Shown here piece after piece: positions 14,579 through 60,700 of a DNA stretch of 64,000 nt. The notes under the pieces were generated by a model. That model was not told the DNA's origin. It was given only the letters and a program-made list of their open reading frames with translations, and made no database searches. Every line of letters starts with the position of its first letter. Positions within the stretch are counted from its first letter, which is position 1. The position numbers and the translations under genes were made by a program. The stretch is taken from assembly GCF_022369475.1 (NCBI RefSeq), contig NZ_CP059601.1:1-64000 (forward strand), in the 5' to 3' direction. The DNA comes from Campylobacter sp. RM12651 (lineage in GTDB: Bacteria > Campylobacterota > Campylobacteria > Campylobacterales > Campylobacteraceae).

Positions 14579-15160
14579 TTAAACTCCGAAATCTTTTATA
14601 AAACTCTTTTTAAACCTTGCAAAATAAATATTTTTCTTACGTGGTTTTAGACCGTAATTGTAGCATTCTATAGCGTTTTCAATATCTTTTTTTGCAACGA
14701 TACAAGATTTAAGAATTTGAGTTGCTTTTCTCAAATTCCCCTCCAAACTAACAACTTGCTCAACTTCAGAAATAGAAAAATTATATGAATTAATTTGAGC
14801 TAGTCCAACATCAAAAGAAAAGTTATTCTCTTTTAATATTTGTGTTAGGATAACTAAATCATCTTTATTATAAGCAAGTATATTGACTATTTTTTTATTA
14901 GAGTTTAAAGCATAATCATAAAAAGATACTTTAAATTTATTCTTGCGGTTTAAAGTAATGATTTTGTTTACTTCATCTTTTTCCAATAACATTGAAATTA
15001 TTTTTGGATTAAAATTACTCTCTATTTTTACAATTGTATATAAAATCTTAGGATTAATATTTTCTTCAAATGCAACCTTCTTTATTGCTTCTGCTATTTC
15101 CAAATCAGTGAATGCAAACATTTTTATGTATATAAGAAAAATAAATCCTATTTTTATCAT
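14579..15160 (-). CDS. VirB1-like lytic transglycosylase, 193 aa
   Basis: Periplasmic peptidoglycan lyase that opens the wall for the secretion channel. It has a short signal peptide (about 1-17). The SLT-type core begins ILYTIVKIESNFNP with E47 as the predicted catalytic glutamate, followed by the GLAQIN motif (about 121-126) and AIECYNYG near the end. An insertion of roughly 50 residues between the catalytic motif and GLAQIN is longer than usual. It sits between the VirB8-like and VirB4-like genes, the normal company of VirB1 proteins. Confidence 0.82.
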   Translation of the reverse strand: MIKIGFIFLIYIKMFAFTDLEIAEAIKKVAFEENINPKILYTIVKIESNFNPKIISMLLEKDEVNKIITLNRKNKFKVSFYDYALNSNKKIVNILAYNKDDLVILTQILKENNFSFDVGLAQINSYNFSISEVEQVVSLEGNLRKATQILKSCIVAKKDIENAIECYNYGLKPRKKNIYFARFKKSFIKDFGV

Positions 15161-22526: not shown

Positions 22527-24584
22527 TTATGCTACTTCTTTTTCATATCTTGATTCATAATCAAAATCTGTAGACTTATTTTTGAGTTCTCTTAACTTTT
22601 TATTGATTTTATTGTCAAAATCTATTTCTTTATAATTATTTAGTTCTTTTTCTTGTTCTTTAGTTAAAGCTCCAAAGCATTTAAAAGAATTTTTTTCTTG
22701 GTGTTCTTTAGAAATACCAATAGAATCACTAAAAGGACTGGCATCATCAAAAAGGTGTGTAAAATATACACCTTTTTTCAAATTAGATTTTGGTTGTTTT
22801 GGTTGTGTTTTAGCATTAGATAAAACAGGTAATTCATACCATAAAATTTCGGAAGAGATACTTTTCATTTTTACACGGTATTTTTCTAAAAATTCCTTAT
22901 TTGCAAAAATATTATTTCTGCGTGACCAAACTTGCTTTATAAAGTTATCGAAATTTAAATATTGTGTTATTGGTAATTTTGTATGAATATCATTACCGCC
23001 ATAAGTAGTAACTTTGCCTTTATGTAGTAATGATTTTTCAGCACAAGCTACTGCTTTATAAAACTCACCATCAGTAACAACTATCATTTCACCATTGTTC
23101 ATTTTTTCTAAATCGTGATGTTTAATTTTATCCTCTAGTTGTGTTTGGAAACTATCTTCTACATGTGAATTACCTTCAACACCTAAGCGTCTTTCTTGGT
23201 AGCTTCTATCTATAAATCTGTTTTGTCCTAGCTTTTCGTTTATCATTTTACTAACATCTGTTGAAGTTGTTTTCATTATGCAAAGCGTTCCAGTCATACC
23301 TAGCATTTCTTTAGTTTCTAATCCTTTGCCATCATCAACTTCATCAATTTGAGACAAAGATTGAAAAATAGGAATAATCGAGAATCCTAAAGCCCTACAT
23401 TTAGACATTAATCTTCCAAAACCTTTTACACAATAAGAACCAATCTCATCAAACATACACAAAAAAGGTATTTTGGGGTTGTAAGATTCTTTAGCTTTCT
23501 TTTGTGCTACACCTTTTAAAATACCAAGTAAAAGCATTCCTAGTTCTTTCGGTGTTTGGTCTGAATCCATTGATGGCAATGTTACAAATAACATTTTATT
23601 GTGTTGAACTACTTCCCATAAATCTGTTGTAGGATGTTGAGTATTAAAAACACTCCTATAATCAGAACCTAGCTTGGTAATAACACTACGCCAAGCACCA
23701 ATACTAACACCAAAATCATAGATACCTTGTTCTTTATTAGCTTTAATTTTTTCTAAAATATCAGCATAGAATGTATCAGGATTACCATCCTTTAAAATTG
23801 TTTCGATTGATTTTACACGTCCATCGCTATAAACAATATTAAAATCATGTTCTACAAAGTCTTCATAATTAACATTTAAACAAGATGTAATATATTTTAC
23901 ATAATCAGCAATAGGAGACACTTCTTTAGATTTTTTTCTGTAAATTATAGCGGCTCTTAAAAGTGAAGGTATATCCATATAATTAGATAATGAGCCGAAA
24001 TTCAAAGGAATAAATTCCTTATCTCTCATATAGACCAATAATTTTAAAAGGTTATTCATAAACTCTCTTTGTTTTTGTTTCCACTGGTCTTCTTCACCTA
24101 TCAATAAAGAGTTCATAATCTCATAAAGGTTGCTAGATGACCCGTTCTGCAATGGGTTAATACTAGCTGTATTATCCATATCTAAAAAATTGATATGGAT
24201 AAAATCATCTCTTCTACCATATCTACAAGCTAGAGCAAACATTTCTTGGGCGAACTCTGCTGTTCCTTTTCCGTCAATAATAAAACAACCACCGCCAAGT
24301 TGTAATTGTTGTTCTGCAATACCTTTCATAAGAACAGTTTTACCACCACCAACAGTAGCGATTATAGCTAAGTGTCTTTTAAACTTTTCAGCATCTAAAA
24401 GAATAGGCCCCTTGTAGTTTGTAAGAAATGAACTTTTTCTAGCATCTCCATAAAACTCCTTAATATGAGTACCTATTTGGATTAAATATTTATCTTTTTC
24501 TGTGTTTTTTGATAAATACCCCAATTTTTCACTGGCTTCTTTTTTCCTTTCTAAATGTCCAAAAAAAACAGCAATGCCCATCAC
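22527..24584 (-). CDS. VirD4/TraD/DotL-type coupling ATPase (T4CP), main open frame, 685 aa
   Basis: Coupling protein that brings DNA or protein substrates to the channel. The P-loop is ATVGGGKT (K82). Walker B is FLCMFDEIGSY at about 375-385. Other typical segments are FIIDGKGTAEFAQEM, TLPSMDSDQTPKELG and the IPIFQSLSQIDEV helicase-like motif. The frame opens with a GTG at 24584 inside the upstream 101-residue frame. By itself it lacks the usual two-helix N-terminal anchor, keeping only half of a helix (VMGIAVFFGHLE). The missing anchor is encoded just upstream in another frame (24529-24834), joined through a homopolymer of eight A on the plus strand (24608-24615). The full gene is therefore probably 22527-24834 (about 769 residues), broken or slipping at that run. 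Confidence 0.85.
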   Translation of the reverse strand: MMGIAVFFGHLERKKEASEKLGYLSKNTEKDKYLIQIGTHIKEFYGDARKSSFLTNYKGPILLDAEKFKRHLAIIATVGGGKTVLMKGIAEQQLQLGGGCFIIDGKGTAEFAQEMFALACRYGRRDDFIHINFLDMDNTASINPLQNGSSSNLYEIMNSLLIGEEDQWKQKQREFMNNLLKLLVYMRDKEFIPLNFGSLSNYMDIPSLLRAAIIYRKKSKEVSPIADYVKYITSCLNVNYEDFVEHDFNIVYSDGRVKSIETILKDGNPDTFYADILEKIKANKEQGIYDFGVSIGAWRSVITKLGSDYRSVFNTQHPTTDLWEVVQHNKMLFVTLPSMDSDQTPKELGMLLLGILKGVAQKKAKESYNPKIPFLCMFDEIGSYCVKGFGRLMSKCRALGFSIIPIFQSLSQIDEVDDGKGLETKEMLGMTGTLCIMKTTSTDVSKMINEKLGQNRFIDRSYQERRLGVEGNSHVEDSFQTQLEDKIKHHDLEKMNNGEMIVVTDGEFYKAVACAEKSLLHKGKVTTYGGNDIHTKLPITQYLNFDNFIKQVWSRRNNIFANKEFLEKYRVKMKSISSEILWYELPVLSNAKTQPKQPKSNLKKGVYFTHLFDDASPFSDSIGISKEHQEKNSFKCFGALTKEQEKELNNYKEIDFDNKINKKLRELKNKSTDFDYESRYEKEVA

Positions 24585-24834
24585 GAAAGAATGGAAAGTG
24601 CCATAATAAAAAAAATATAAGCACTTCCTTACTAAAAATATATTGCTGTTTAAATATTATCATAAAAACCAAGTAAATACCTACTCCTATTCCCATAAAA
24701 TTAAGTGAAGTAGTTATAAAATTAATACTTTCTTGAGTGGTGAATGCGTCGTAAAAGTTATCTCTTTTAGGACGCATTACCCTTTCTTGTATATCGTCAT
24801 AGACAACATTTTTTCCATCACTTCTTACAGCCAT
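24529..24834 (-). CDS. N-terminal membrane anchor of the coupling protein, out of frame
   Basis: The reading frame has a soluble start of ~40 residues and then hydrophobic helices (about 42-66 and 70-83). The last ~30 residues (after KEVLIFF) are an unlikely cysteine- and tryptophan-rich tail that overlaps the T4CP frame. Removing one base from the eight-base homopolymer at 24608-24615 makes the frame continue as KEVLIFFYYGTFHSFVMGIAVFFGHLE straight into the T4CP. That gives the normal two-helix anchor followed by the ATPase domain. I read this as the 5' part of the T4CP gene. The split may be a sequencing error, a phase-variable tract or ribosomal/transcriptional slippage. It might instead be an independent small membrane protein. 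Confidence 0.6.
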   Translation of the reverse strand: MAVRSDGKNVVYDDIQERVMRPKRDNFYDAFTTQESINFITTSLNFMGIGVGIYLVFMIIFKQQYIFSKEVLIFFLLWHFPFFRDGHCCFFWTFRKEKRSQ

Positions 24835-33672: not shown

Positions 33673-36600
33673 TTATAAACGCTGTTGGTAAATACTAGTA
33701 TCGTCATTTTTTAAAGGTTCTTGATTTTGAGTTGTAATATGTTTTATAGAGTCTCTAACTCTATAGTGAGATTTTAAATCGCTACTGACACTTTTTATCT
33801 TATTTGTAAAACTAATTGAATCTAATTGAGTTTCGTCAAGAGCTTCTAATTCTTTTATGATATCTTCAAAAGCTTCTTTTGTTAAATTTCGATTATCTAG
33901 CATGTTATTGAAAGTATTTTTGCCGTTTGGATTTAATTCGGTCAATTTAAGACTTAATAAAAAATTAATGTCTTTTATTATTTCATCATTATCCTGCAAT
34001 TTTTCTTTTGATAATCTATTATTTAAACTGTCTCTTAAATTTTCATAAAAAAGTATTTTTTCATCTTTTTTAATATTATTGCTTTCTAAATATTCAGTTT
34101 TCTCAAGCTTTTGATTTTTTAAATGCAATAATTCATCTTTTAAAACAGGTAATAAAACTGTTAAAGCTAAATCAATTTTTACTTTTTCTGCTTCTTTTTT
34201 ATCTAAATCAAAAGGAATATCTGACCTAAATCCTACTTCAAGGTATGATTTGGCTATTTTTGTGGTAGGGTCAAATGCTACAGCAATATCATTATTTGCT
34301 TTTAAAAAATTCGTTATATTTTTGCCATTATTACTAAATAAAGTTGGCATAATCTCTTTTCCAAAAATCTGTTCTATATTTTCTCCTAACCTTTCAAAGT
34401 TTATGGATAAAACTTGATTAAAACTTCCGTTTTTTAAATTAGAGTTCATGATTTTTAATATAGAATCAGTTTTAAAATCTATATTTAAAACCTTTTCTGC
34501 AAAGCTTAATAATAATTCTTTATCTTGTAATATTGAAAAATTATCTTTTCCTGCAAGCCCTCTTTCAAAAAGCATAGTTTTTATATTGTTTGTTTCTAAT
34601 TTAGGCAATGCTTGAATATCATCAATTTTTATAAAATCAAGTATGTTTTTGTAATTATTTTTTTCTTCTTGTATATTACTCCCTTTCAATATGTCAAACA
34701 TTTTTATACCTAAAAAATTATTAGTTTCTAACTCCTTTTGTGGCGTATTAGTTTTTGCTTCTTGTTCCACTTCATATTTTTGTATTTTTAATAGCGTTTG
34801 AATATTAGAATAATTTAATTCTTTTCCATCATTTATTAAACCATTCAAATTAACTAATTTTTGAGCTTCAATGCCTTTATAAGATTTAAAAGCATCTTTA
34901 ATTAACGAAGTTGCTTCTTCATTAACCAGTTTTTTTCCTTTTTGTATTTCAAAATCAGATTTAAACCAACATCCATCTAAATCGTTAGCTAGTAATCTTT
35001 CTTTAACAGGTGTCGCTAAACCTGAAGCAATATTTGGATTTTCTATAAGTGATTTTTTTGATAAAGGATTTTCTAATGCTTCTTGTATTTTTTCTACATT
35101 AGATAAGTCAAGTTGTTTATCTTTTACAAGACTATCTAATGACAAAATAATTTCATCATGAACTTGTGCTAAAGTAGAAATATTGTTTTTTTCTAGATTT
35201 GCTAAACCAATTTCAATAATATCTGCAACAGAACCTTGTAAAAGACTATTTAACGCTTTAGTCGAAGCCATTTTTGGATTAAACGCTTCAGTTTCGAAAC
35301 CAAATAGTGTTTTTACACTTGTTTTTGAAACATCGTTTATTGTTTCAATCTTAACTAAATTACTAATTAGGTCAGCTATATAAAGAACATCTTTATTTTT
35401 TGAAATATTATAGTAGAATTCATCATAGCTTCTAACAAAACCAGAGAAATTCTTTAAATAATCCAATTCTCCAGCAATATTTTTTCTATTATAAGCTCTA
35501 GTTTTATCAACAATACTATCTTCAGGTTTTATACCTATAAGGCAATCAAAAAATTCTTTGGAAATTTGTTTTTTATCTGAATTGACAAATATTTTAATTT
35601 CTCTTTGGTATTCATTCCCAGTATTTTTATTAACCTCATCAATACCACGAGAGCAAACGGTAATAGCATCTTTAAGTAAGTGTAAATTTGGATATGTTTT
35701 TTTATGTAAATTTATTTTTTCTTGTATATTTTCTAGTGCTTCATTTACACCCTTTGTCATTTTTGTAAGTTTAAATAAATCATCTAATTTTTGCCTAAAA
35801 TTTTCATCAATTAATCCTACTGCTTCTGTAATTCTCTCTACTCCAGCACCATAAAGCATTTGGAAATTTATCTGCTTCGCTTCGCTTCTTGATACTTTTT
35901 TGTCTTTTTCAGTTAATACACTATTCATATTATCAGCAGTTTCAGCGTGCAAATCTTTACCACCTGAAAGGTCACCAATTAATCTTTTGTCCTGAGATAA
36001 CACTGCAACAGCTCTGATTTCTGCTTGTGCTAAGTCAATAGAAACAAAATCATCTGCTTTATCACCTTTTAAAATCATATTAGAAGAAAAATCTTTTATT
36101 TTATCCTTTATAACCTCAGTTTTTTTATAATCAACGAAGCCAAAATTATTTAATGAATCTAACGTTAAAAATTTCTCTGTCTTTCCACTGAAGGACTGAA
36201 TTGAAACCCCAATTCTATCACCCTTAACATTTTCACCCCTTGACGAAGAACGACCTGTTTTTAAGAGTTCATATCTTGAACCTATTTTTACATTTTTATT
36301 TTCACTAGGTAAAACAACACCTTCACCTAAATTGTTTAAAATCTTGTTTTTATATAAATCTTTTTGAGCCGAAACTTGTACATTTAAGCCATTAATAAGT
36401 GTTTGAATATCAGCTATTAAATTAACTAATACTGTTCTTTGCATCAAATCTTTATTGTTTTGAACTGTATTTGTTATCATAGCATAATTTAATTCTTCAT
36501 CGGTATTATAAAGCGAATGAAAACTACTGTTAATAGCTATTCTCTCAGGTGCTTTTAAATCAATAATAGCTTTTTCAATACTACTAACTTTTTCTAATCT

Positions 36601-39600
36601 CTCAGCCAATGTTTTAATCAAAGATTTTTTGCCACCTGTCGTAGAATTTAAGTTGTTCTTAATGTAATCCCTTACACTTTCATTTTTTACTAAACTAGAA
36701 TAAGCTATTTCTACAGCCCTAGTAGAGTTTTTATCATTGAACAAAGAATCATATACCTTACTTGCAAAAGCATCCACAAAATAATTCATTTTATTAACGT
36801 CTTTAGGATTACCTAAATAAGAAATAAAACCATTTAAAAGTTCTGTATTTTTCACATCCCCTACATTACGATTTTTATAGTCTATTTGTAATTCCTTGAT
36901 TGTATTATTAATCTCTTCAATAACAGGATTTCTAATTTCATATATATTAGGAAATTTTTCATCAACTCTAGCTTTATAAGCTTTTATATCTTCTCCAAAC
37001 TTTCTTGGAATTGCAGGAGACATATTAGCACCATTTAACAATGTGTATTTAAATGGCCAATCTGTATTTATGCCTAAACTTTTAGCATCTATATTTAAAT
37101 TATCAAATGTAAAATCTCCATTAGGGTCAATTAATGTTAGTTTTTTTAAATCACTCTCTCTTGTTACCGTGTTTAATTTATTAAGATTAAAATCATAGAT
37201 ATTAAACAGTTTAGTTAATTTGTTTTTTGTATCGTCTCTTTGCAACTCAGTCGCTATTTGTTGCAAAGATTTTTTTAAGTATAAATATGGGTTTTGGTCA
37301 CTAGCTAAACCTCTTTCACCGTAAAAACTCTTAATAATATTTATAGGTAATTCATGCAAAGGGTGGGTGTTATCTGATAATGCTTTTCTAAGAGTGTTTA
37401 AAATCTCACCAAAATATTCAGTATTTACAACCGTAGCAATATTGCTTAAACCTGTAAAATCAGCAACTAAACTTTTATCTCCTATATTATCTAATAATCT
37501 TTGTCTTTGTTCTCTAATCTCTTGTTGAGTTCTTGGAGCAGGAATATTAGATAAATCAATAGTTTCAATATTGATATTGCTTGCTTGTTGTAAATTTTTA
37601 TTAACAGGCTCTATATTATTAACTACTTGTCTTTGATTTTGATGAGAATTGATTAATTCATTTAAAGCCATATCATTTTGTTTAACAAACTCTTTATATA
37701 TAGTTTCAAAAGCATTGCCTTGAAATGCTAATTGTCTTTGAGTGTTAGGATTTGCTTTGTTATATGCTAATAATTTAGATTCTTCTAGTTCATTTTTTTC
37801 TTTTGAAAATGACCTACAATAAACTACGTAAAACTTTTTAAATACTTGCGTTGAACCAGGATGTCTAATAATACGATTTGTGCTTCTATCTTTATATTTA
37901 GATATATCTTCTAAATAGTTGTTAAACTCTTTACGTTTTTGAACATCGTTTGCATAATAATCATTGTTAATTTTATCTAATATTCTATCAATATTAATAC
38001 TTCTTGCTTTAAATAAAGATGGGTCAGCATTATCTTTAAAAATATTATGCTCCGATTTACCATCAGAATAAACAACCACCCTATTTGCTAAAATCATATT
38101 AGCAAAATTAACGGCTTCATTGTGTGTTAAAAATGAGGTTATATGTAATCTTATTCTACTTAATGATGTAGGTATATTTTTCTCATTAAAATTTCCTTCT
38201 ATAGGAAACTCTATATCTTGTGTATCAGCATTATAAAAACAATATTTCACATTGCTTGTTAGAATTTTTTCCATAGCATCTGAGAGTATCTGTCTTTCTT
38301 CATTATTTGCCTGACCTAATATAATAGGTTTTTCGGTATAGAATTGATTGTTTAAAGTGCTATTTTTATACATTAATAATGAAAGATTTATTACTTTATT
38401 ATCAATTTCACTAATGCTTGCAAAATTGATATTTTGTAAATTGATAGCTTCTTTAAAATCTATTGGATATTTTGTATTTTCAGTTTCTTGTTTATACTCT
38501 TGTTTAGGTTCAATTTGTAAAGGTTCTTCTTTATTCACTGGTTCTTCTTGAGGTAGTTGTTGAGTTCGTTCAAATTCTGCTATATTTTTCTGTATCAATT
38601 CATTTTCAGCTAGAATATCTGTATCTTGTGTATATTCTAAATAGTTATCTGAATAATCACCTAAATAAGCATCTAAAGGATAATCATCGTTGTAGCTACT
38701 ACTCATAGAATAGTCATATTCACTAAAATCATTATCTTGTAAAATGGTTTCTTCTTGTTTAGGTTCAATTTGTAAAGGTTCTTCTTTATTCACTGGTTCT
38801 TCTTGAGGTAGTTGTTGAATTTCTTTTTGCTCTTCTTCTATTATTTGCTTATTTTCTGATTGTGGTAAAGAAGCTTCTTTAATCGCTACCTCATCTATAT
38901 TATTCAATATTTCGTTTTTTATTGTTTCATCTTCTTGAGATACTTTTTTCTCTTGTGAAACATCTGATTGAGTAGGGATATTTTCAGATATTGTTGAAAT
39001 ATTATTGCTTTGTGCTAAAAGTTTATCAAGCATAGCTTTATCATTTTTAAAATCATTATTAAACCATTTAACAAAAATATTGCTCTCTTGCTGTGGGACA
39101 TATTTTACTATTTCACTTATTTGTTTATCAAAGCTTTCAAGTAATTGAGTTGTTAATTCCTTATTTTTTACACTAGTAGATATATCTTTATAAATTTTTT
39201 CAAGTTCTTTACTTGATAAATTAACCATTTCGCTTTTTAGATTTCTTATTGAATTAATCATAGTCTGCTCTAATTGGTTTAATGAGCTTGTTTTATTTAT
39301 ATCAATATTATCATTTTCAGCTAGTTTTTTGATTTTTTCTAATAAAGCATAGGTTTTTTGTAAACTTTCAAGAATGTTTTCGTCTTCTTGGATATTACTA
39401 TTTTTATTTTTTTCTTGCAAAATTGTTGAATAATGTTCTACGTTTTTTAATTCACTTAAAAGCTCTTCATTTGGGTTTACTTCTTTTATAGGTTGAATGG
39501 GTTGTTGCATTATTTCTTTAATGCTTTTATTGTTTTCAAGCCATTCAGATATTTCTTGCAAAGAAGCTTTATCTATTATTTTAGACTCTGTATTTGCTTC

Positions 39601-42600
39601 TTTGTATCTTTGTATTACTTCATACCAACTATCAAATCTATCTTGAATGTTTTCAGAAGTTAAAGCATTTTTACCCTTAAAGTTTTTAAACTCTCGTATA
39701 GCATTAATTACTTCAATTGCTAAATTATTTTCGTTTTGTGATTTAGGTTCTTGACTTATATCCGCAGGCTCTTGCTTAATTGATTGATAATTTTCTTCTT
39801 GTTTAGTATCTTCTGTTTGCAAAGGTTGTGCTTGATTATCTTCATTATTTTCGTTTTCTGCTAGTTTTTTTTCTATACTTTCGTTTTCTGCTAAAATATC
39901 ATCATCTAAAATATCATCACTATAATCTTCTATAAAATCAATATCTTCTTGTAATATTTTTGTATCTTCTTGCTCTTTTTTTGCTTGTTGTTCTTTTAAA
40001 ATTTCTTGCTCTTTTTCAGCTTGTAATTTTTCAAGTTCTTCTTTTGCTCTTTCTTCTTCTTGCTTTCTTTTTTCTTGTTCTTGTTTTAATGCTTCAGCCT
40101 CTTGTTGGTTTAAAAGGCTTGTAAATACACTTTCAGCAGTTTCTCTAAACGCAACTATAGTCTTTTGCGTATCTGAAATTTTATCTTGTGTAAGAGCTAG
40201 AATGCCACTAAATTGTTTATTTAAAGTATTTGTAAAATCTTTATTATTAGGATTTATAGCATCATAAAATAAGGCAATTTTACCTGATTCAAGAAGCACT
40301 GCTTTTAAAGGTTCTAAATTTGTATTTCTATAAAATATACTATTTTGATTATTAAGCATATTTGTTAAAGAATTTAAATAGTTATGTGTATCTATAATAC
40401 CTTTTTGGCTATTATAGATTTGTGGTTCTTGCGTAGTCTTACTTACAAATGTATCAAGATTAATTACAACACTTGCAATTTCACCATTTAACCCTTTTTG
40501 TTTTAAATCTTCTGGATAGTAATCTGTTAAAGCCATTAATTTTTCAATTTGCTGTTGAGTAGGAGTTGCTGTGATATTTTTCACGCTTGACAGTAATACA
40601 TTTACCTCATCGTTTAAAATATTATTATCCTTTCTTTTTAAATTATCCATATTACTAGCATCAAAATAAGTAGTTTCATCTTGTAAAATGACAGTATGCT
40701 CGTTGCCTTTAAAATCTTTAATTTTATATAAGAATTGATTTCTTGTATCTATTTCTTTTTCTATAGGTTCTGTATTTATTTCTTCTTTAATTTCAGTCGT
40801 ATTTTCTTCTTGTTTTTTATCTTCTTGTTGGTTAGGCTGTTTTACTTCTTCTTTTTTAGGTTCTTCTTGTGGGTTATCTTGTTTTGTTTTAGCAGTAGGT
40901 TCTTCTTGCTCTTTTTGATTATCTTGTTTAATATCTTCTTGCGTTGTAGTTTGTTTGGTGTTTTGTTGTTTTGAAGATATTTCTAATTCATAGTTTAACA
41001 TGTCATCTTGATATTTTGAGTGACTTGTTTTTGTAGAATAAGTATAATCAGCAAAACTACTTATAGAATTTCTAATTTTATCTGCAACAGCACTTCTTAC
41101 TAATACATCTTCGGCATTATTGAATACTTCTTGGAATAAATTAATTGTATATGTTCCATCAATATTTTTTTGATATACAACCTCTTTTGCACCTTTTAAA
41201 CCGCTTTGTGAGTTTATAATTGAATTATTGTCAATAAGTGCTTTTGTAAGAACTTTTAAATATTCATCTTGACTTATATTTTTTATTTTATTGTTTATTA
41301 AATTTTCATCAAGCTTTAAAGTCATAGATACCATTACGACGTGATTATCTTTAGCCTTTTCTTGCATTGCCTTACTTAAACCTAAACCATCCCATATTTT
41401 TGGGTTTGAAGCTTTAATTCCGTATGGTTTAGCTTTAAAAGTATTCATTAAAATAAGTTCGTCTCTAAGTTGAGTATCACTTTTTTTGTCCCCGTTTGAT
41501 AAATATTGACTACCTTCACCATTGTATTTGATAGTTTTTTCGTTTTCACAACAAAATAATTCATCAAGCTCTTTTTGTCTTAAAGCATCAGACTTATCTC
41601 TTTCTTTATAAGTGGCTGTTTCGTTACTTTTTGCAAAATATTCATTTGTAGCTTTTACTCTTGATTCTATACTTTCATCTAAGGCAAAACGGCGTAGATT
41701 ATTCATAGCCACTAATATTTTTCTATGGGCTTTTTCTGATTCAGTATCTTCTACTGCTATAAAGATTTTGTTATCTTTATAAAAAGCTTTTAACGATGAA
41801 GGAAAATTTACATCCTGCTTTATAAAGCTTGTTGGGTCGTTAAAGGCTCTCGCAAGTGCTTGAGCATAAGCATCGGGTCTTACTCTACCATAAAAACTAT
41901 TGGTTAAATTATCAGGAATTGTTATTTCAAAATATACATTTTTTCTTTTTAATATATCAGATGTTCCTTGTAAGGATAAATCAGAACCGTAAAAACCTTG
42001 TGGAGCAGTCGTGCCAGCATCTTTAATTAAAGAAACCAAATCTCCTTCAATAACTGTTTTTGCATAAAGTTTTTCATATCTTTCTTGAATATAAGATTTT
42101 GGAGAGCCGTCATTGTTAAATTCTGATAATTCATTAGCCCAATTAAAAGGGTATTTCTTTTCTTTTGTTTCGGGATGAGTTGTCTCGTAAAATTGTTTCC
42201 AATTTTTTACAGCTTCTTTTCTAGCCTGAATTGTTGTTTCTGTTTCTTTAACTTCAGCTTCTTTATTTGTGTTAAAAATATCATCTTGGTTAGTTTCAGT
42301 GTTATTAGTTTGGTTATTTTCACCAGTTTGTTTTTGTCTATTAGCTTGAGTTTGCCTTGCGTATTTTACTTTTTCTTCATAATCTTTAATTAAAACAGAG
42401 AAATTGCTTTCGCCTGTTTTAGGATTAATTCTAGCGTTTTGAGTAATTGCACTTAGTGCTAATTCTAAATCTCTTAGAGTTTCGTTTAGATTTTTTACCT
42501 CATCTTTGTCAAAAAATAAAATTAGTCCATCTTTGCCTGTAAAAGTGTCATCCATTATTTTATACGGAGCTTTTGCGTATGATTCTTCATATAAAATACT

Positions 42601-44976
42601 GTTTTGGTTTAATAGATATTCTTTTAAAAAACCTTTGTAATATCTTCTAAATGCTTCAGGGTCATTTTTTAACTCTTTTAACATTGGATGATTTGGAGGT
42701 AAAATCTTATCAAGTATTTGATTATTTAACTCTCCTACGTTTAAATGTACTGCATGTAAAGAATTATCTTTTAGTTTTTTTAGTAAAATCTCATCTTTAT
42801 CTATAAATGCTTTTACTTCCATATCAGCTAATGGTTTTTCATATCTAGTAAATCTCTCTTCACCATCTTTTAAATCGCTTGTAGTTCTAAAGAATATGTT
42901 TTCTTTTATGTATTGTTCTTCACTCTTTAAATTATTGTCTTTATCATATTTTGAAGCTTCACCATTCCAAGAAAATATTCTTGTCTTATAGGCAAATTTT
43001 ACATTTGATAGGTCTACTTTTGGTATAGCTCCATCTAGTTTAATTTCAGCTTTTGATGATTGGTATTTAGGATATTCATCATTAAGCATTTCCTGCGTTC
43101 TGCTCCAAAAATCTTTCGTGTCATTAGAGAATTCGTTTTGTAGTTTATTTAGTTTTTCCAAATCTTTGCGTATGCTATTATCTAATTCTCTTATTAGTTT
43201 ATCAAATCCAACATCTTCGCCCCTTGCACGACGTGCTATATCAACTTGTTGGCTTTCTGCAAGTCCAGCACATATATTAAGTAGTGCATGATTCATCCAA
43301 ACGTCAAACTCAGATTTTTGTAATGTATGTTCTAAGAGTTTTGCTACTTCTTCTCTACACTCATTTATATCTCTTTGTGGAGGAATTATTTCTCCATTTG
43401 GCCCAGTTGATGGTAAGAATTCTCTTGGTAATATGTGTTCGTATTTAGCTAATTCTTCAGGATTAATTATAGCACCCATAGAAAGTTTTGCGGCCAATGC
43501 CCTAGCCTCATCTCTTTTTATTGTTTCATTCATTACAATATCTTTATATTGTTCATATGAACCTACTCCAAAAAAACCTATATAACTACCTACTAAACTT
43601 TGCCCTATTTTTTTAGTTGCTTCAAGAGAAGACAAGGCTAACATTTTAATACCACATTTAAGTCCAAGCCAAGCGGCCTTGCCTGATTTATCTGCTGAAG
43701 CTTTGCAATAGTTTGCTATATTTTGAGCCAAAGAGCTATCATAGTCGAAAAATCTTTTTCTATTGTATGTGTAATTATGCTTTATTTCTTCTTGTGGCTT
43801 TTCTTTTGCTTCTTCTAATGTTGCTATAGTATTTTTTATTTCTTCTAAACCGTGTTGGATTAAATCATATTTGGCTATTGGCGATGAATTACTTATATTA
43901 GCAATAAATTCGTGTGCTTTTTCTTCTTCTTGTTGTGTTGGCAATTCAATCATTGCTGTTATAGGAATGATTTGTGTTTGTGTAGTTCTTGTTTGTGTTT
44001 GTATAAAATCATTTAATGCTTTTTCTTTTTGTGCTATATCAGCAATTATTTTTTCTCTTAGTTTTTGATTTAATTGGTTATGGGTACTTAAAACAATAGT
44101 TGCTTCATAACTTCCATCTTCATTTGTTTTTACTCCCCAATTAATGTCTTTTAAATAAGTAGCCCAGTTATCTTTTAAGTTGTTGTCTTGTCCGAATAAA
44201 ACTTCTATCTTTTTATTAATAGCATTATAGACATACGCCTGAATATCAGCATCAGGGTTATTTTTTAAAGCTTGTGTAATTTCATTATCTAAAAGCTTTC
44301 CTGTAATTTTAAAAGATAAAGCTTTGCTCTCGTCTAAAAGATTTTTTATTTCCTCATTTTGGTTTTCGCTAAATCTCTCATCGTTTTTACCTATTCTTAA
44401 AGGATATTCAAGATTTAATATATCTTCACTATTAACTACTGAAAGTGTGCTATCTATATCATTAATTATTTCATATCTAGCAAAATCGTATATGCTTAAT
44501 TCTTTGAAAGCAAAAGAAGTATTCTTATTGTATAAAAGCTCATTTTCCATGAAAGCATTGTATTTATCTTTATCAGCTCCAAATATATCTTCTAAGCCCT
44601 TGATATTTTCGTGAGCTGGGATATTAATTTTGTTTGGCTCTATATTTGTATTAGCAAAAGCATTTGAAATATTAATGTTAGTGTTTTTTGAATTTATTAT
44701 TATTTCTACATTACAATTTTTACAACCATTTAGCATGTTTTCTAAATTATTAGCTTTAGAAAAATCCCATTTAGTTAAACCAATATCTTCATAAAAGCTT
44801 TTAGGGAGATTAACATTTCCGTTTTCATCTTTTGCAAAATCAAATAGATTAGAAAAATCTGTTATTTCTGAAGTATTAATTTCAACTTCAATCATTCCAT
44901 TGTTATTAAAATCAGCAATTACTTCTTTTAAAATTTCTTGTAATTCTTGTTTGTTAGTTGGTGTATAAACTTTCAT
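33673..44976 (-). CDS. Giant polyvalent-type protein with a C-terminal family A DNA polymerase domain, 3,767 aa
   Basis: One uninterrupted frame with a strong ribosome-binding site (AAAGGAG). Residues ~35-135 carry BspA-like (DUF285-type) repeats (TDFSNLF, KWDFSKANNLENMLNGC, NISNAFANT). About 210-2290 holds apparently repeated ~110-190-residue modules (near 210-322, 655-845, 940-1100, 1145-1312, 1413-1596 and 2168-2290). These are separated by Q/E-rich coiled-coil linkers (about 1340-1400, 1605-1750, 2005-2165). Residues ~2830-3330 are a family A polymerase: TGRSSSR segment; motif A DLAQAEIR (D2981, E2986); motif B R3030, K3034, F3038, Y3042; motif C HDE (D3274, E3275). All catalytic residues are present. 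No 3'-5' or 5'-3' nuclease was recognised. A ~440-residue helical tail follows. Giant multidomain 'polyvalent' proteins are known from conjugative elements and phages and may enter the recipient with the DNA; this role is inferred. Confidence 0.85.
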   Translation of the reverse strand: MKVYTPTNKQELQEILKEVIADFNNNGMIEVEINTSEITDFSNLFDFAKDENGNVNLPKSFYEDIGLTKWDFSKANNLENMLNGCKNCNVEIIINSKNTNINISNAFANTNIEPNKINIPAHENIKGLEDIFGADKDKYNAFMENELLYNKNTSFAFKELSIYDFARYEIINDIDSTLSVVNSEDILNLEYPLRIGKNDERFSENQNEEIKNLLDESKALSFKITGKLLDNEITQALKNNPDADIQAYVYNAINKKIEVLFGQDNNLKDNWATYLKDINWGVKTNEDGSYEATIVLSTHNQLNQKLREKIIADIAQKEKALNDFIQTQTRTTQTQIIPITAMIELPTQQEEEKAHEFIANISNSSPIAKYDLIQHGLEEIKNTIATLEEAKEKPQEEIKHNYTYNRKRFFDYDSSLAQNIANYCKASADKSGKAAWLGLKCGIKMLALSSLEATKKIGQSLVGSYIGFFGVGSYEQYKDIVMNETIKRDEARALAAKLSMGAIINPEELAKYEHILPREFLPSTGPNGEIIPPQRDINECREEVAKLLEHTLQKSEFDVWMNHALLNICAGLAESQQVDIARRARGEDVGFDKLIRELDNSIRKDLEKLNKLQNEFSNDTKDFWSRTQEMLNDEYPKYQSSKAEIKLDGAIPKVDLSNVKFAYKTRIFSWNGEASKYDKDNNLKSEEQYIKENIFFRTTSDLKDGEERFTRYEKPLADMEVKAFIDKDEILLKKLKDNSLHAVHLNVGELNNQILDKILPPNHPMLKELKNDPEAFRRYYKGFLKEYLLNQNSILYEESYAKAPYKIMDDTFTGKDGLILFFDKDEVKNLNETLRDLELALSAITQNARINPKTGESNFSVLIKDYEEKVKYARQTQANRQKQTGENNQTNNTETNQDDIFNTNKEAEVKETETTIQARKEAVKNWKQFYETTHPETKEKKYPFNWANELSEFNNDGSPKSYIQERYEKLYAKTVIEGDLVSLIKDAGTTAPQGFYGSDLSLQGTSDILKRKNVYFEITIPDNLTNSFYGRVRPDAYAQALARAFNDPTSFIKQDVNFPSSLKAFYKDNKIFIAVEDTESEKAHRKILVAMNNLRRFALDESIESRVKATNEYFAKSNETATYKERDKSDALRQKELDELFCCENEKTIKYNGEGSQYLSNGDKKSDTQLRDELILMNTFKAKPYGIKASNPKIWDGLGLSKAMQEKAKDNHVVMVSMTLKLDENLINNKIKNISQDEYLKVLTKALIDNNSIINSQSGLKGAKEVVYQKNIDGTYTINLFQEVFNNAEDVLVRSAVADKIRNSISSFADYTYSTKTSHSKYQDDMLNYELEISSKQQNTKQTTTQEDIKQDNQKEQEEPTAKTKQDNPQEEPKKEEVKQPNQQEDKKQEENTTEIKEEINTEPIEKEIDTRNQFLYKIKDFKGNEHTVILQDETTYFDASNMDNLKRKDNNILNDEVNVLLSSVKNITATPTQQQIEKLMALTDYYPEDLKQKGLNGEIASVVINLDTFVSKTTQEPQIYNSQKGIIDTHNYLNSLTNMLNNQNSIFYRNTNLEPLKAVLLESGKIALFYDAINPNNKDFTNTLNKQFSGILALTQDKISDTQKTIVAFRETAESVFTSLLNQQEAEALKQEQEKRKQEEERAKEELEKLQAEKEQEILKEQQAKKEQEDTKILQEDIDFIEDYSDDILDDDILAENESIEKKLAENENNEDNQAQPLQTEDTKQEENYQSIKQEPADISQEPKSQNENNLAIEVINAIREFKNFKGKNALTSENIQDRFDSWYEVIQRYKEANTESKIIDKASLQEISEWLENNKSIKEIMQQPIQPIKEVNPNEELLSELKNVEHYSTILQEKNKNSNIQEDENILESLQKTYALLEKIKKLAENDNIDINKTSSLNQLEQTMINSIRNLKSEMVNLSSKELEKIYKDISTSVKNKELTTQLLESFDKQISEIVKYVPQQESNIFVKWFNNDFKNDKAMLDKLLAQSNNISTISENIPTQSDVSQEKKVSQEDETIKNEILNNIDEVAIKEASLPQSENKQIIEEEQKEIQQLPQEEPVNKEEPLQIEPKQEETILQDNDFSEYDYSMSSSYNDDYPLDAYLGDYSDNYLEYTQDTDILAENELIQKNIAEFERTQQLPQEEPVNKEEPLQIEPKQEYKQETENTKYPIDFKEAINLQNINFASISEIDNKVINLSLLMYKNSTLNNQFYTEKPIILGQANNEERQILSDAMEKILTSNVKYCFYNADTQDIEFPIEGNFNEKNIPTSLSRIRLHITSFLTHNEAVNFANMILANRVVVYSDGKSEHNIFKDNADPSLFKARSINIDRILDKINNDYYANDVQKRKEFNNYLEDISKYKDRSTNRIIRHPGSTQVFKKFYVVYCRSFSKEKNELEESKLLAYNKANPNTQRQLAFQGNAFETIYKEFVKQNDMALNELINSHQNQRQVVNNIEPVNKNLQQASNINIETIDLSNIPAPRTQQEIREQRQRLLDNIGDKSLVADFTGLSNIATVVNTEYFGEILNTLRKALSDNTHPLHELPINIIKSFYGERGLASDQNPYLYLKKSLQQIATELQRDDTKNKLTKLFNIYDFNLNKLNTVTRESDLKKLTLIDPNGDFTFDNLNIDAKSLGINTDWPFKYTLLNGANMSPAIPRKFGEDIKAYKARVDEKFPNIYEIRNPVIEEINNTIKELQIDYKNRNVGDVKNTELLNGFISYLGNPKDVNKMNYFVDAFASKVYDSLFNDKNSTRAVEIAYSSLVKNESVRDYIKNNLNSTTGGKKSLIKTLAERLEKVSSIEKAIIDLKAPERIAINSSFHSLYNTDEELNYAMITNTVQNNKDLMQRTVLVNLIADIQTLINGLNVQVSAQKDLYKNKILNNLGEGVVLPSENKNVKIGSRYELLKTGRSSSRGENVKGDRIGVSIQSFSGKTEKFLTLDSLNNFGFVDYKKTEVIKDKIKDFSSNMILKGDKADDFVSIDLAQAEIRAVAVLSQDKRLIGDLSGGKDLHAETADNMNSVLTEKDKKVSRSEAKQINFQMLYGAGVERITEAVGLIDENFRQKLDDLFKLTKMTKGVNEALENIQEKINLHKKTYPNLHLLKDAITVCSRGIDEVNKNTGNEYQREIKIFVNSDKKQISKEFFDCLIGIKPEDSIVDKTRAYNRKNIAGELDYLKNFSGFVRSYDEFYYNISKNKDVLYIADLISNLVKIETINDVSKTSVKTLFGFETEAFNPKMASTKALNSLLQGSVADIIEIGLANLEKNNISTLAQVHDEIILSLDSLVKDKQLDLSNVEKIQEALENPLSKKSLIENPNIASGLATPVKERLLANDLDGCWFKSDFEIQKGKKLVNEEATSLIKDAFKSYKGIEAQKLVNLNGLINDGKELNYSNIQTLLKIQKYEVEQEAKTNTPQKELETNNFLGIKMFDILKGSNIQEEKNNYKNILDFIKIDDIQALPKLETNNIKTMLFERGLAGKDNFSILQDKELLLSFAEKVLNIDFKTDSILKIMNSNLKNGSFNQVLSINFERLGENIEQIFGKEIMPTLFSNNGKNITNFLKANNDIAVAFDPTTKIAKSYLEVGFRSDIPFDLDKKEAEKVKIDLALTVLLPVLKDELLHLKNQKLEKTEYLESNNIKKDEKILFYENLRDSLNNRLSKEKLQDNDEIIKDINFLLSLKLTELNPNGKNTFNNMLDNRNLTKEAFEDIIKELEALDETQLDSISFTNKIKSVSSDLKSHYRVRDSIKHITTQNQEPLKNDDTSIYQQRL
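38498..38818. repeat. 66-bp direct repeat, 255 bp apart
   Basis: 38498-38563 and 38753-38818 are identical. On the minus strand they encode the linker QLPQEEPVNKEEPLQIEPKQE twice in frame in the giant protein. The spacing of exactly 255 bp (85 codons) keeps the frame if one copy is lost by recombination. Confidence 0.93.
38821..38960 (-). repeat. 140-bp inverted repeat, copy A (in the giant gene)
   Basis: Identical over 140 bp to the complement of 59253-59392. It encodes residues ~2006-2052 of the giant protein (KKVSQEDETIKNEILNNIDE and following). The second copy lies 20.3 kb away in the 1,023-residue gene, in opposite orientation and the same codon phase. Confidence 0.97.
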
Positions 44977-47231: not shown

Positions 47232-50200
47232 TTATCTCCTGTTTATATTAGAAAATAAATTATCTTCTTCCGAGTCTTCTTCCGTTTTTTTATCATCAAG
47301 TTTTAATGATTTTAAGTATTCATTTTCTTCAGTTAGATTTTTAATTGTTTCAAGCATCTCCTTAAACTGCTTGTTAAATCTTTCTACTGTTGCACCTAAA
47401 GAGTGGTAATCTTGATTTTGTTCGTTATACTTTTCAAGTAAATCTTTATATTTTTGCTCTAAATTATCTTTTTCTACTGTCAAATCATTAATCTTAGCAT
47501 TAGCACTATTTAGATTTTCAGTAAGATGATTATTTGTGTTTTCTAAATCATTAATCTTAGCATTAGCACTATTTAGATTTTCAGTAAGATGATTATTTGT
47601 GTTTTCTAAATCATTAATCTTAGCATTAGCACTATTTAGATTTTCAGTAAGATGATTTATTATAGTAGTCTTATTGGTTATATTTTCTTCTAAGGTTTGT
47701 ATCGCTATTTTTTGGTCTTCTATTAAGCTTACTAAAGAATTATTTTGCTGTTGTAAATTATTTATATTGTCATTTAAAGAATTAATTTGAGCCAACTGTT
47801 CTAGTTTCATATTATTTACCGCACTAGTTATATCAGCAAATTCAAATATTTCTGTGCCTGTAATCTTTTGTAGATTATCCATTAATATTTTAATATTATC
47901 TTGAACTTCATTAATATGTTTTTCTAACTTACTATTAGTTAGTAGTTGCTCTTGCAATAATTCACTAGCAACAGTAAGTTCTATTCTAGTGTCTTCTAAT
48001 GCTAATATATTTTTATTTAAATTATCACTTAAATCTAAGACTTCGTTTTGAAGTTTTAGATTTTCTTCGTTTGTTTTGTTTAAATCTTCTAACAATGTTG
48101 AATTTTTTATTCTTTCGGCTTTTAATGCTTCTATATTATTAGCTAGATTTGTAGCATTCTCTAAGTGTTGAACTGCCAAAGAAGACATGAAGCCTTGCAC
48201 AATTTCGGTTATTGCTAACCTTGCTTGTTCATTTGTGGTTTTTATATTTTGTGGTAAAACTTTTAAAATAATATCTCTTACGATTGGCTCTAGTGTAAAC
48301 TCTTTATTTGGTGTTGTCTTCTTTAGCCCCTCGAGCATTATAGAAAACGCTTGTTCTTTTTGTGAATTGTTTGTTCTAAACGTATTTAACGCTCTTTCTG
48401 TTTCCATTTGAGTATTGATTACATTTTGGCCTAAATTGCCAAAAAGAAATACTTTATAGTCTTCTAAAACTCTGTTTTCTATAATCTCTAATTTTTCATT
48501 GATTGATTTATTTTCATAATCATCGCCGAAATAAGTTTTAGTTTCGGTATCATCTTCTAAAATATCGTCTAGCTCCAATTTAGGTTTTGGCATAGATTTA
48601 ATTAAATCTTCTATGCTATTACTATTGTCTTCATTTGTTATACTTGAAGAATTGAAATCTTTTTCTATTTGCTCAATTGACTTATTAGGCGACAAAGAGC
48701 CTGTTTGGTTAAATTCTCTAAGCTTAGAATTAGTCTCAACCCATTCATAAGCAAGTGTATCTTTTCCTACAATAAAGCCATTTAAAGCATCAAAAGAAAA
48801 AGGTGATTTTCTTGTAGCACCTGTAACAATCAACAGCTCATCTCTGAGTATTTTTTTTGTTTTAATATAAGCATTTCCAACTTCATTAAAAAATTGATGC
48901 TCTAACATATTCAGGTTGGCCGCTTGAACTTGCGAAATCTTATTATTTTTACCTTCATCTTCGGGCTTAGCACTATAAGAAATACAATGAATTAGCTCAC
49001 TTAAGTTAGAGTTTCTAGTTTGTAGCTCATTTGCAGTAATTCTTTCATTTTTATAAACATGACAAAGTGCTTGAAAATCTTCATCAGGATAATTATCTAC
49101 CCTATCGCTTTGCAATCTTCCTTTATCTTTAATATTTTTAAAAGTTAAATTATTGATATTTTGTGAGTCTTTAATAATAAGCATTTTTAAATCATCGAAA
49201 CTAGTGATTAAATTTGCTTGTGTGTTTTGCTCTAATAGTTTTTCAGCATTACTTAATTCTTCCTCAGTTTTTAAAATTTTTAATGGATTATCGCTTGTTA
49301 AATCTAATAACATTGGAGCTATTTTAATTTCGCTAGCTACTAAGTGATGGTTTTTTGTATAAATATGATGTATTTCTCTTTTTTCATCATCAAATGCTAT
49401 TTTTTCTCTTAAAGCATAACATTTGTGATTATTAATGATTTCTTTCTTAAAGTTAATCCACTCAATATCATCAAGCTGTGATAATCTAACTTTATTATAA
49501 ATTAACCCTGCAAGGGAAGCACCCTTGCTTCCAAACCCAGCAACTAATGTTGCACCTGCAACGCTAGAACCTGCCGATTGCAAACTTGCTACAAAGTTTG
49601 GTTTCCAAATTGGATTTTTGTTTTCAGATAAATAAGTTCCTTTCGCAAAATAATCTTTTCTTTCAGTTTCATGTCCTCTTTCTAGTTGTTTTCCAGTGCG
49701 TGGCTCTAAATTAATTGCAAAAAGCGAATTATATAAAATATTATATCTGCTACTATTTTTTAACCCATTTATTAAATTTTCTTTTTCTTCAAAAGAAATC
49801 TGTGAATATATTTTTTCATAAAATCTTTCAGCTTTTGTTAATAAATTAACACTACTAGTATCTACACCGTTAATATTGTTGAGATTAATATCTGCAGTTT
49901 TATCTCTTAATAAGAATGAGAGTTCATTATCCTTTTCTTTAATCTTTTCGATTATTGGGGCAAATAAGTTTTTATCAAATTCTGTATTATCAAGGCATTT
50001 TAACTCTGTTGATAAGTATTCAATTATTTGTTCTCTTGTAATATTTGATGTTTCATTAGTTGTTTCTTCTAATAAAATTTCTTTTTCTATCTGTTCTTGA
50101 TTTTTCATATCTTGAACTAAAATATCAAAAATTATTTTAGAATTGATTTCGTCTAGGATAATTTGAAACTTGTTAAACTCTGGACTTTCCTTATCATTGA

Positions 50201-50372
50201 GGTTTAAAAGTATTTCGTCTTTTAGATAGGTTTTTAATACATCATCCGCATTATATATATAGTGTTCCAAATTATTTTTAAAATTAAAATAATTATTTTT
50301 ATAATAACTAGATAATTCTAGAGCATTTTTAGCACTTGTTGTTATAGAAACATCAGATTCGATTATATACAT
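47232..50372 (-). CDS. Large coiled-coil protein, 1,046 aa
   Basis: The N-terminal ~260 residues are helical and hydrophilic. Around 275-305 is a glycine/alanine-rich stretch (AGSSVAGATLVAGFGSKGASLAGLIY) that could be a membrane hairpin or pore-like helix pair. It is followed by a mixed region with HHIYTKNHH. From about residue 740 to 1020 it is a long coiled coil containing three perfect 21-residue repeats (about 906-963, NNHLTENLNSANAKINDLENT). It has no signal peptide. Its gene is the first of the three large minus-strand genes and begins about 110 bp after the start of the intergenic gap. Function unknown. Long coiled coils next to DNA-processing giants occur in plasmid and phage loci, but nothing more specific can be said. 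Confidence 0.65.
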   Translation of the reverse strand: MYIIESDVSITTSAKNALELSSYYKNNYFNFKNNLEHYIYNADDVLKTYLKDEILLNLNDKESPEFNKFQIILDEINSKIIFDILVQDMKNQEQIEKEILLEETTNETSNITREQIIEYLSTELKCLDNTEFDKNLFAPIIEKIKEKDNELSFLLRDKTADINLNNINGVDTSSVNLLTKAERFYEKIYSQISFEEKENLINGLKNSSRYNILYNSLFAINLEPRTGKQLERGHETERKDYFAKGTYLSENKNPIWKPNFVASLQSAGSSVAGATLVAGFGSKGASLAGLIYNKVRLSQLDDIEWINFKKEIINNHKCYALREKIAFDDEKREIHHIYTKNHHLVASEIKIAPMLLDLTSDNPLKILKTEEELSNAEKLLEQNTQANLITSFDDLKMLIIKDSQNINNLTFKNIKDKGRLQSDRVDNYPDEDFQALCHVYKNERITANELQTRNSNLSELIHCISYSAKPEDEGKNNKISQVQAANLNMLEHQFFNEVGNAYIKTKKILRDELLIVTGATRKSPFSFDALNGFIVGKDTLAYEWVETNSKLREFNQTGSLSPNKSIEQIEKDFNSSSITNEDNSNSIEDLIKSMPKPKLELDDILEDDTETKTYFGDDYENKSINEKLEIIENRVLEDYKVFLFGNLGQNVINTQMETERALNTFRTNNSQKEQAFSIMLEGLKKTTPNKEFTLEPIVRDIILKVLPQNIKTTNEQARLAITEIVQGFMSSLAVQHLENATNLANNIEALKAERIKNSTLLEDLNKTNEENLKLQNEVLDLSDNLNKNILALEDTRIELTVASELLQEQLLTNSKLEKHINEVQDNIKILMDNLQKITGTEIFEFADITSAVNNMKLEQLAQINSLNDNINNLQQQNNSLVSLIEDQKIAIQTLEENITNKTTIINHLTENLNSANAKINDLENTNNHLTENLNSANAKINDLENTNNHLTENLNSANAKINDLTVEKDNLEQKYKDLLEKYNEQNQDYHSLGATVERFNKQFKEMLETIKNLTEENEYLKSLKLDDKKTEEDSEEDNLFSNINRR
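47485..47657. repeat. 63-bp tandem repeat in the coiled-coil gene, nearly three copies
   Basis: Units 47485-47547 and 47548-47610 are identical, and a third (47611 to about 47657) matches until it diverges. On the minus strand they encode in-frame 21-residue coiled-coil units (three heptads each), so copy-number change would lengthen or shorten the rod without a frameshift. Confidence 0.95.
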
Positions 50373-57766: not shown

Positions 57767-60700
57767 ATGGATATTACTACTATAGAATTTCAAAAATTTA
57801 TTTTGTTTGAAATTACTAAAATTCCACAGGACGAAACACCAGAAAAAGGTAATTGTTTTTTAGAAGTCAAAATAGCAAAACTTAAAACAGATAATGATAA
57901 ACAATATAATGATAATAGCTTTAATGTAAGTGACATGGATTTTATTCCATTAAAAATAGCAAAAACACATTTTGATATTTTATTTGCTGATAAAACTAAA
58001 TGGGGTTATCCTTTAGACCAAAAAACAGTATTAACTTACATAGCTGAACTTTATAGTAAAGGTTTTTTACAAAAAACTAATCTATATATTAATGGATTAT
58101 TGAAAACTGAAAATGAAATAAGTATTGAATTAATTAACACCTTTTTAAACACGAAAGAAAATGAGGAAAAACCAGTAAGATTTAAGATTAACAAATATGC
58201 GATTGATTTTAAAGATTTAGAACCCTTAGAAGAGTATGTGAATCAACACCGAAATGCAATTTTAGAATCAATTATTACTAAATTAGAGTTTGAAAGACAT
58301 TACAAAGAAAGTAATATTGTTTTAGATAATATTGATTTAGAGCTTTTTTATAAAACATTATCTTTTAAGACGCCGATTGAATCAACCTCACAATTTTTAC
58401 AAGACAAAAACAACAAAGAAAGAGTTTTTATTATTGCTAATTTTGAGCTTTATGTAAATAAAGAGAAATTAAAAAATATTATGAAAAGTGATTTAAATCA
58501 ATTAAGCAATGACGAATTTAATAGTAGGTTTAACTCTACTTTTGAATTATTTAAAAAGTTCAATGAGGGAATTTTTAAATGGGTAATAACTTATTTTTTA
58601 CAAATGTATAGGTTTGAAAATAAACTTGATTTATCTAGTTTAGGTTTGCTTTGTGATATTGCTACACAAAAAAGTGATAATAAACTCTTCCAAATTGTAA
58701 GCGAATTATTTTTTGGCGGTAAAGATAAAATAAGTAAATATAACAACAAATTTATTTTTTTATGTGAGGCTAAAGTTTTAATATTTATGCCCTATATATT
58801 TAACAAGGCAATTAAAGAAGCTTTATCTGATTTTGCTAATAGTGAAAATTCGAAGAGTCAAAAGTTTTTAAAAGACTTTGTAGAACAAGAAAGACTAAAC
58901 CTACCTTTAAAATTAGATGAAAAAAAATACAATGAGGATTTATTCAATGACTTAGATGATATTAAATCAGTTATTGAAATTTTTTCTGAATCTAGTTTAA
59001 AAGAAGTATATAATGATATTATTGAAAAAGAAAAAATTAGATATAACAAATGCTATCCTCACGCCTTAAATGAATTACCGTGTAATGGTAATTATGATGA
59101 GCTATTAAATGTTTTTTGCTCACATAATATTAGAGATATAATAAAAAATGATTTGAAATATACCCTTGCTGAAGTGGAGAAAAAAGAGAATGATATGATT
59201 TTAGAAAATATTAAAGAAAAATACATTCAAAGTAATAAAAATAAATTAGATATTTCACAAGAGAAAAAAGTATCTCAAGAAGATGAAACAATAAAAAACG
59301 AAATATTGAATAATATAGATGAGGTAGCGATTAAAGAAGCTTCTTTACCACAATCAGAAAATAAGCAAATAATAGAAGAAGAGCAAAAAGAATTTAGGGA
59401 AGAAGAGCCTTTTGGAGATTTTGATGCAACTATAACAAAAGATTTTGATTATCCTGAAACTTATGAAGAACAAATTGGAGATTTTGATGCAACTATAACA
59501 AAAGATTTTGATTATCCTGAAACTTATGAAGAACAAATTGGAGATTTTGATGCAACTATAACAAAAGATTTTGATTATCCTGAAACTTATGAAGAACAAA
59601 TACCGCAAGAAGAAAAAACAAATGAATTAAAACAAGGAAATACATTTATTAACGAAACAAACTTGGATGAAGATAAGTATAAAGACGAATATAATAAACA
59701 AAATGCTTTAGAAAACTTGAATGAATTAGAAAATAAATTAATAGAAAAAGATAATATTATTGCAAAATTAAAGGTTCAACTTAAACTTTTAGAAACTGAT
59801 GAGCGTATTAAAAATATAGAAAATGAATATTTTAAGCTTGGTGAGAGTTTAAAAACGGAAATAAAAATTAAAAATGATGATATTAAAGAATTAAGGCATC
59901 AATTAGCAGAAAAAAATATAAGTTTAGAAAATATAAGACATGAGTTAGAAAGTATAAAAAATAAAAATGAAGAATTAAAAACCTCATCAAATACTAACGA
60001 GGAAAGTATAGAAATACATTTCGCTAACTTTTTAAAACTTTATATTAATATCCCACTAAACAAGGATGAATATAGTAAGAATATCTATTTATTAAGCTTA
60101 ATTTCTTGTGCTTCAAAGTCAGATGATGATATTTTAAATAATTATATTGATTTTATGCTGGAAAAAAATAAATTAGATATTAATAAATTTGTAGATGAAT
60201 ATTCTAGTTTTCTTAAGAAGTTAGATATTAAAGATAAGAGAGGTTTAGAAAGAGCCTTAAAAACAACCAAAAGTGATGCTAGAGCTGGTCTTTTATCTAT
60301 GCTGGATTTTTTTAAAGATTGCTTTGAGTATGATGAAATAGATATTAAAGAAGCTAAAATAAATAAAGTTTCCGATATCTCTACAAAAAAAGAAATAGAA
60401 AAAAGTGAGAGTACTCAAAATATCACCAAAAATAATATAGGGCTATTAGATAAAATTTTAAATAAGTTTGATTTTAAAAGCAAAAATAAAAAAATTAGTG
60501 AAGGCAAACATGTAAGTATGATTTTTGAAGTTCTGATAGATAAACCATATTATAATAAAAATATTATAAGTGCTATTACCAAAGAAGTTGTCGGCGTAGT
60601 AGCCGAAGTTTTGGAAAAAAATAAAACAAGTTTTCAAAACCTAGCAGTCAATACTCCTAATTTAAAAGAACAAAAAGAAGAATCTAAGAAAAAAGATTTT

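Follow-up and report, generated by a model that had tools for sequence, protein, structure and literature searches.

Introduction

A conjugating plasmid enters the recipient single-stranded, and its conversion to double-stranded DNA is considered to rely for the most part on polymerases of the host. Family A DNA polymerases elongate existing primers and, as a rule, do not synthesize primers themselves. Among the closest described systems to the protein reported here are the polyvalent proteins, such as TraC1 of RP4, SogL and ArdC, which are very large, multi-module proteins that carry DNA enzymes and are encoded by phages and conjugative elements. The founding survey of this class describes primases and the RNA polymerase of phage N4, and no family A DNA polymerase; the whole words 'DNA polymerase' occur in its text only inside one reference title (PMC5512222). 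Phage N4 has a virion RNA polymerase of about 3,500 aa, a giant protein with a T7-like RNA polymerase at its center that is injected together with the genome (PMC5512222). In Campylobacter, the Campylobacter helveticus plasmid pHELV-1 encodes a giant accessory protein of 2,631 aa, related to SNF2, in which no polymerase is annotated (gene at L136:924-8819).

Here we describe a gene for a 3,767-residue protein that, like the polyvalent proteins, is very large, is built of several modules, includes a DNA enzyme and is carried by a conjugative-type plasmid; it differs from them in having none of their known domains and in having a family A DNA polymerase in place of a primase. As in the N4 virion RNA polymerase, a nucleic-acid polymerase is housed within a giant protein, near the C-terminus in this case rather than centrally, and no sequence relation between the two was detected. 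The pHELV-1 protein accompanies the same transfer system and is not homologous to the polymerase giant, and this lack of homology rules out descent from the pHELV-1 gene.

A single long gene on a conjugative-type plasmid

The window, that is, the whole 64-kb stretch of DNA analyzed here, makes up half of a 123,334-bp contig (C2) in a 2.19-Mb genome of three contigs. Judged by its sequence, this 123-kb contig is a plasmid, since it carries a Rep3 initiator (C2:70945-72060) behind a 22-bp iteron array as well as a type IV secretion backbone. The giant protein is encoded by a single open frame at 33673-44976 on the minus strand, which starts with an ATG downstream of an AAGGAG site. At the local composition, the log10 P of so long a run without a stop is about -148, and the codon usage agrees with that of the plasmid's own transfer genes in 7 of 7 blocks of 500 codons, in this frame only. 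The frame is thus a real gene that is coding-like along its whole length; the run statistics and the codon usage of each block rule out a frame artefact, and the uninterrupted frame described in an earlier reading of the bare DNA (the sequence-only reading) stands in full.

That reading had related the gene to conjugative elements, and the surroundings, those of a conjugative-type plasmid, bear this out. A transfer cluster at 2.2-25.7 kb of the window encodes a type IV secretion backbone common to Campylobacter and Helicobacter plasmids, including a TraG/VirD4-like coupling protein (22527-24834, minus strand) and a VirB4-like ATPase (11221-13704, minus strand) that are 34-47% identical to Campylobacter and Helicobacter plasmid proteins, the ATPase being 34-38% identical to those of Campylobacterota plasmids. 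A transglycosylase with an SLT domain (14579-15160, minus strand) was recognized in the cluster. The gene for the coupling protein is divided between two frames, with the ATPase at 22527-24584 and the membrane N-terminus apparently in the ORF at 24529-24834, so current conjugation competence is uncertain. No known relaxase was recognized among the proteins scanned, and neither the giant protein nor its neighborhood yielded a primase, a peptidase or a relaxase. The gene for the giant lies outside the shared transfer backbone and points the same way.

A second, stand-alone PolA of 736 aa is encoded on the plasmid as well (1-2211, plus strand). Because the plasmid bears this enzyme in addition to the giant, selection appears to act on DNA synthesis carried out by the element. 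Of 72,556 plasmid records, just 116 contain a PolA-like match to the 736-aa protein.

A divergent family A polymerase core

Profiles, alignment and modeling place a family A DNA polymerase core at residues about 2880-3345 of the giant (34942-36339; this and all other features of the gene are on the minus strand). The Pfam family DNA_pol_A matches residues 2973-3089 with E=2.5e-20 and a score of 73.2 bits, against a curated cut-off of 34.3, and is the sole Pfam family found across the whole protein at E<=1. The PHROGs DNA polymerase family PHROG_17 matches residues 2976-3445 with E=2.5e-28, a search of PDB sequences returned Taq polymerase (E=2.6e-10), and an NCBIfam polymerase match was weak and below its cut-off. 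The eight catalytic residues named in the sequence-only reading (D2981, E2986, R3030, K3034, F3038, Y3042, D3274 and E3275) all lie exactly where it had put them. They provide the Asp of motif A (around D2981 and E2986; 36013-36045), the R/K/F/Y set of motif B (RSEAKQINFQMLYG, with R3030, K3034, F3038 and Y3042; 35848-35889) and the Asp-Glu of motif C (QVHDE, with D3274 and E3275; 35152-35166). An alignment with 21 other PolAs shows that the giant further retains the D and H that follow motif A, together with the QG helix and the HDE motif, features shared with PolA, Taq, Klenow, phage PolA and PHROG_17 members. In that alignment T2907-G2908-R2909 (36250-36258) corresponds to the TGR motif that precedes motif A, a placement that depends on the alignment, these residues being unaligned when 30 PolAs are used.

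Around this conserved center the core is highly divergent. Background identity to PolAs is about 16%, and all metal- and dNTP-binding residues are retained. From motif A onward, compared with 30 other PolAs, the giant keeps 15 of the 20 columns that are conserved at >=95%, against 28 of 176 variable columns. Conserved positions that have been lost include S2983A, an R to F change near 3180, and K3255E. In a PolA phylogeny the giant polymerase sits on a very long branch of about 5 changes per site, far from both the host PolA and the plasmid PolA and joining neither, and a recent copy of either is thereby ruled out. Retention of the active site on so divergent a frame points to selection on the active site and argues for an active enzyme.

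A model of residues 2690-3390 (AlphaFold2) has pLDDT values of 75-90 in the palm and fingers only and shows the palm and fingers fold of family A. All 50 of the 50 PDB fold matches listed for it are family A polymerases; the rows of the alignment behind the model are themselves PolAs, and these matches are thus partly circular and supporting rather than fully independent.

Two descriptions in the sequence-only reading hold in part. It had called the polymerase intact, which is true of the catalytic residues. The stretch before motif A, however, is very divergent, and no family match to a 3'-5' exonuclease (proofreading) domain, which is optional in family A, was found with Pfam or NCBIfam. The interval from R3030 to H3273 measures 243 residues in the giant and 123-143 in viral PolAs, which corresponds to an extra segment of about 100 residues between motifs B and C (35422-35754, boundaries approximate). 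The polymerase had also been put at the C-terminal end; it is near the end, but the core stops near residue 3345 and about 420 residues follow. This C-terminal region (residues 3346-3767; 33676-34941) has no Pfam match. Embedding of the core in 3,767 aa, the missing recognizable exonuclease and the insertion between motifs B and C are what set the giant apart from other family A polymerases.

Architecture of the remaining protein

The N-terminus of the giant consists of one unit of about 100 residues that resembles BspA/DUF285 proteins (residues 1-110; 44647-44976). Its matches range from 33 to 40% identity: a BspA protein of a C. jejuni plasmid is 33.7% identical to it over 89 aa (E=3e-7), and a further match reaches 40% over 94 aa (E=5e-10). 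The sequence-only reading had seen BspA-like repeats here, a description that has to be corrected: BspA/DUF285 proteins have tandem DUF285 repeats, whereas the giant has this single unit, and Pfam DUF285 has no match in it at E<=1. By contrast, the plasmid gene at C2:78333-79733 scores E=1e-136 for DUF285. No signal peptide was apparent at the giant N-terminus on inspection of the sequence, which has no hydrophobic signal. The protein is thus unlikely in the extreme to be a surface protein or adhesin of BspA type with an incidental polymerase domain, as its BspA-like first 100 residues might suggest, given the lack of a hydrophobic signal, the single unit without a DUF285 match, and the need of a polymerase for cytoplasmic dNTPs.

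Repeated modules had been proposed for the middle of the protein, and one pair of them is real. Residues 921-1109 (41650-42216) and 1139-1313 (41038-41562) are related with z=7.0, none of 200 shuffles scoring as high, and constitute a diverged duplication. Residues 646-850 (42427-43041) may be a further diverged copy, with weaker z values of 3.0-3.7, and the remaining proposed copies were not significant in the same shuffle test. A single-sequence structure prediction of residues 1-1200 gave a pLDDT of 35, too low to be informative.

The linkers of the giant are charged and contain young repeats, including a 66-bp exact direct repeat at 38753-38818 and 38498-38563. A further linker segment of 149 bp (38821-38969) is 98.7% identical to 59244-59392, a stretch within the ORF at 57767-60838 on the opposite strand to the giant. 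This near identity, in sequence that is coding in both genes, suggests that linkers were recently copied or exchanged between them. Near-perfect tandem repeats are also present in other large ORFs, at 8103-8310, 47482-47657 and 59412-59601, with unit lengths (39, 63 and 63 bp, respectively) that are all divisible by three.

No domain characteristic of polyvalent proteins (LPD, ArdC, MPTase, Toprim/Primpol, RadC and so on) was detected in the giant with Pfam at E<=1. It is a large multi-domain protein on a conjugative-type element, as polyvalent proteins are, but membership of the class, which the sequence-only reading had proposed, is not supported by any domain of this kind, and the survey that defined the class holds no family A DNA polymerase (PMC5512222). 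We therefore do not file the giant as a polyvalent protein, and suggest by analogy that it may work like one.

Search for relatives

A polymerase fused into a protein of this size had been thought rare, and the searches agree. A tblastn survey of 72,556 plasmids, the plasmid-database check that had been suggested, used segments from the polymerase, the N-terminus and the middle of the protein as queries and recovered no relative of the giant and nothing of the same architecture beyond generic PolA motifs. Two segments searched against 50,697 phages returned generic PolA motif matches alone, in 8 phages, and scans of viral contigs found no relative. Neither did scans of genome contigs in which the C-terminal part of the giant and the coupling protein served as queries. 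In collections with one genome per species, whole genomes from the family, the genus and 399 members of the order yielded ordinary PolAs and BspA-type N-termini only. Nearly all of 249 Campylobacterales genomes have a single PolA match, with frames of <=940 aa among the matches listed, and the four other genomes in which a second PolA match occurs lack a giant frame. These searches thus offer no relative in which conservation of the architecture can be compared, which counts against the explanation that we favor below.

Proposed function

Our best explanation, to which we give a probability of roughly 0.5, is that the giant is a plasmid-specific, multi-module protein of polyvalent-like character that elongates primers on DNA of the plasmid itself, carrying a DNA-extending enzyme where a polyvalent protein would carry a primase. 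The polymerase domain would be active, and the long N-terminal part, with its BspA-like cap, repeated modules and charged linkers, would bring it into position at plasmid DNA or at partner proteins. There it would extend primers on single-stranded or gapped plasmid DNA, whether to complete the second strand after transfer, to fill gaps or to replicate the plasmid, and would free the plasmid from host PolA. The primer would come from the host primase or from transcription, because family A polymerases need an existing primer to extend; for the same reason, priming is the less likely half of the earlier proposal that the protein primes or completes the second strand. With such a protein, the range of enzymes known from giant mobile-element proteins would extend to a DNA polymerase. 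As the searches turned up nothing related to the protein as a whole, it may represent a novel means by which a plasmid supplies its own enzyme for copying DNA. Together with the stand-alone PolA, it would suggest that some elements control the second-strand step themselves.

The strongest competitor, which we regard as possible yet doubtful, is a polymerase for vegetative replication or repair that is never exported, fills gaps for the Rep3/iteron replicon in the donor, and owes its size to tethering to plasmid proteins. The Rep3 initiator, the iteron array and the second PolA on the same contig all fit this account, and no transfer signal has been demonstrated. On the other hand, the 736-aa PolA is already available on the plasmid and, to our knowledge, iteron plasmids do not normally need a giant polymerase of their own.

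Returning to the polyvalent-like reading, we put the chance that, given this reading, the giant protein itself is transferred into the recipient at about one in four. It is unlikely overall that the plasmid exports its giant DNA polymerase alongside the transferred strand, or slightly before it, and so makes second-strand synthesis in the recipient independent of host PolA; if true, such a system would parallel, with a DNA polymerase, the translocated primases of plasmids and the virion RNA polymerase of N4.

We think it distinctly improbable that the polymerase has little or no catalytic activity and that the protein acts as a DNA-binding scaffold. Its extreme divergence, the roughly 100 extra residues between motifs B and C, the lost conserved positions and the lack of a recognized exonuclease would all be compatible with such a role; retention of every metal- and dNTP-binding residue at about 16% background identity argues against it. 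An enzyme directed against phages or rival plasmids by abortive infection or interference, which would make harmful or inhibitory DNA or sense single-stranded DNA, seems more far-fetched: the giant is an orphan isolated among accessory genes, and a 229-aa protein with an Mrr-type nuclease domain is encoded nearby, but no PADLOC model matches it at E<=0.01.

Other repeats and genes on the plasmid

Two related replication-initiator-like genes are present on the plasmid, at C2:63809-64984 and 70945-72060, each near short repeats. The 5.3-kb contig of the genome (C3) encodes an initiator with a similar N-terminus and a mobilization-type protein with internal repeats. A 2,221-aa ORF at C2:116467-123132 (L039:12467-19132) has no Pfam match, and the promoter-like sequence upstream of it resembles that of the window ORF at 47232-50372, whose 1,046-aa product has weak SMC-like coiled-coil similarity.

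Outside the window, 29 exact copies of AACGCTTAAAA are spread over C2:66921-114073 (loci L037, L038 and L039), all on the plus strand, with 0 copies in the window. The copies are mostly 41-72 bp upstream of an ATG with an AAGGAG site and are usually followed by a T-run and then TAT. A scan of the whole genome with a 23-bp form, allowing three mismatches, found 18 plasmid sites and one chromosomal site. By analogy, the set looks like a shared promoter or operator of an establishment-type regulon, and it resembles the regulatory sequences of establishment genes in the pLS20 plasmid family (PMC8708921).
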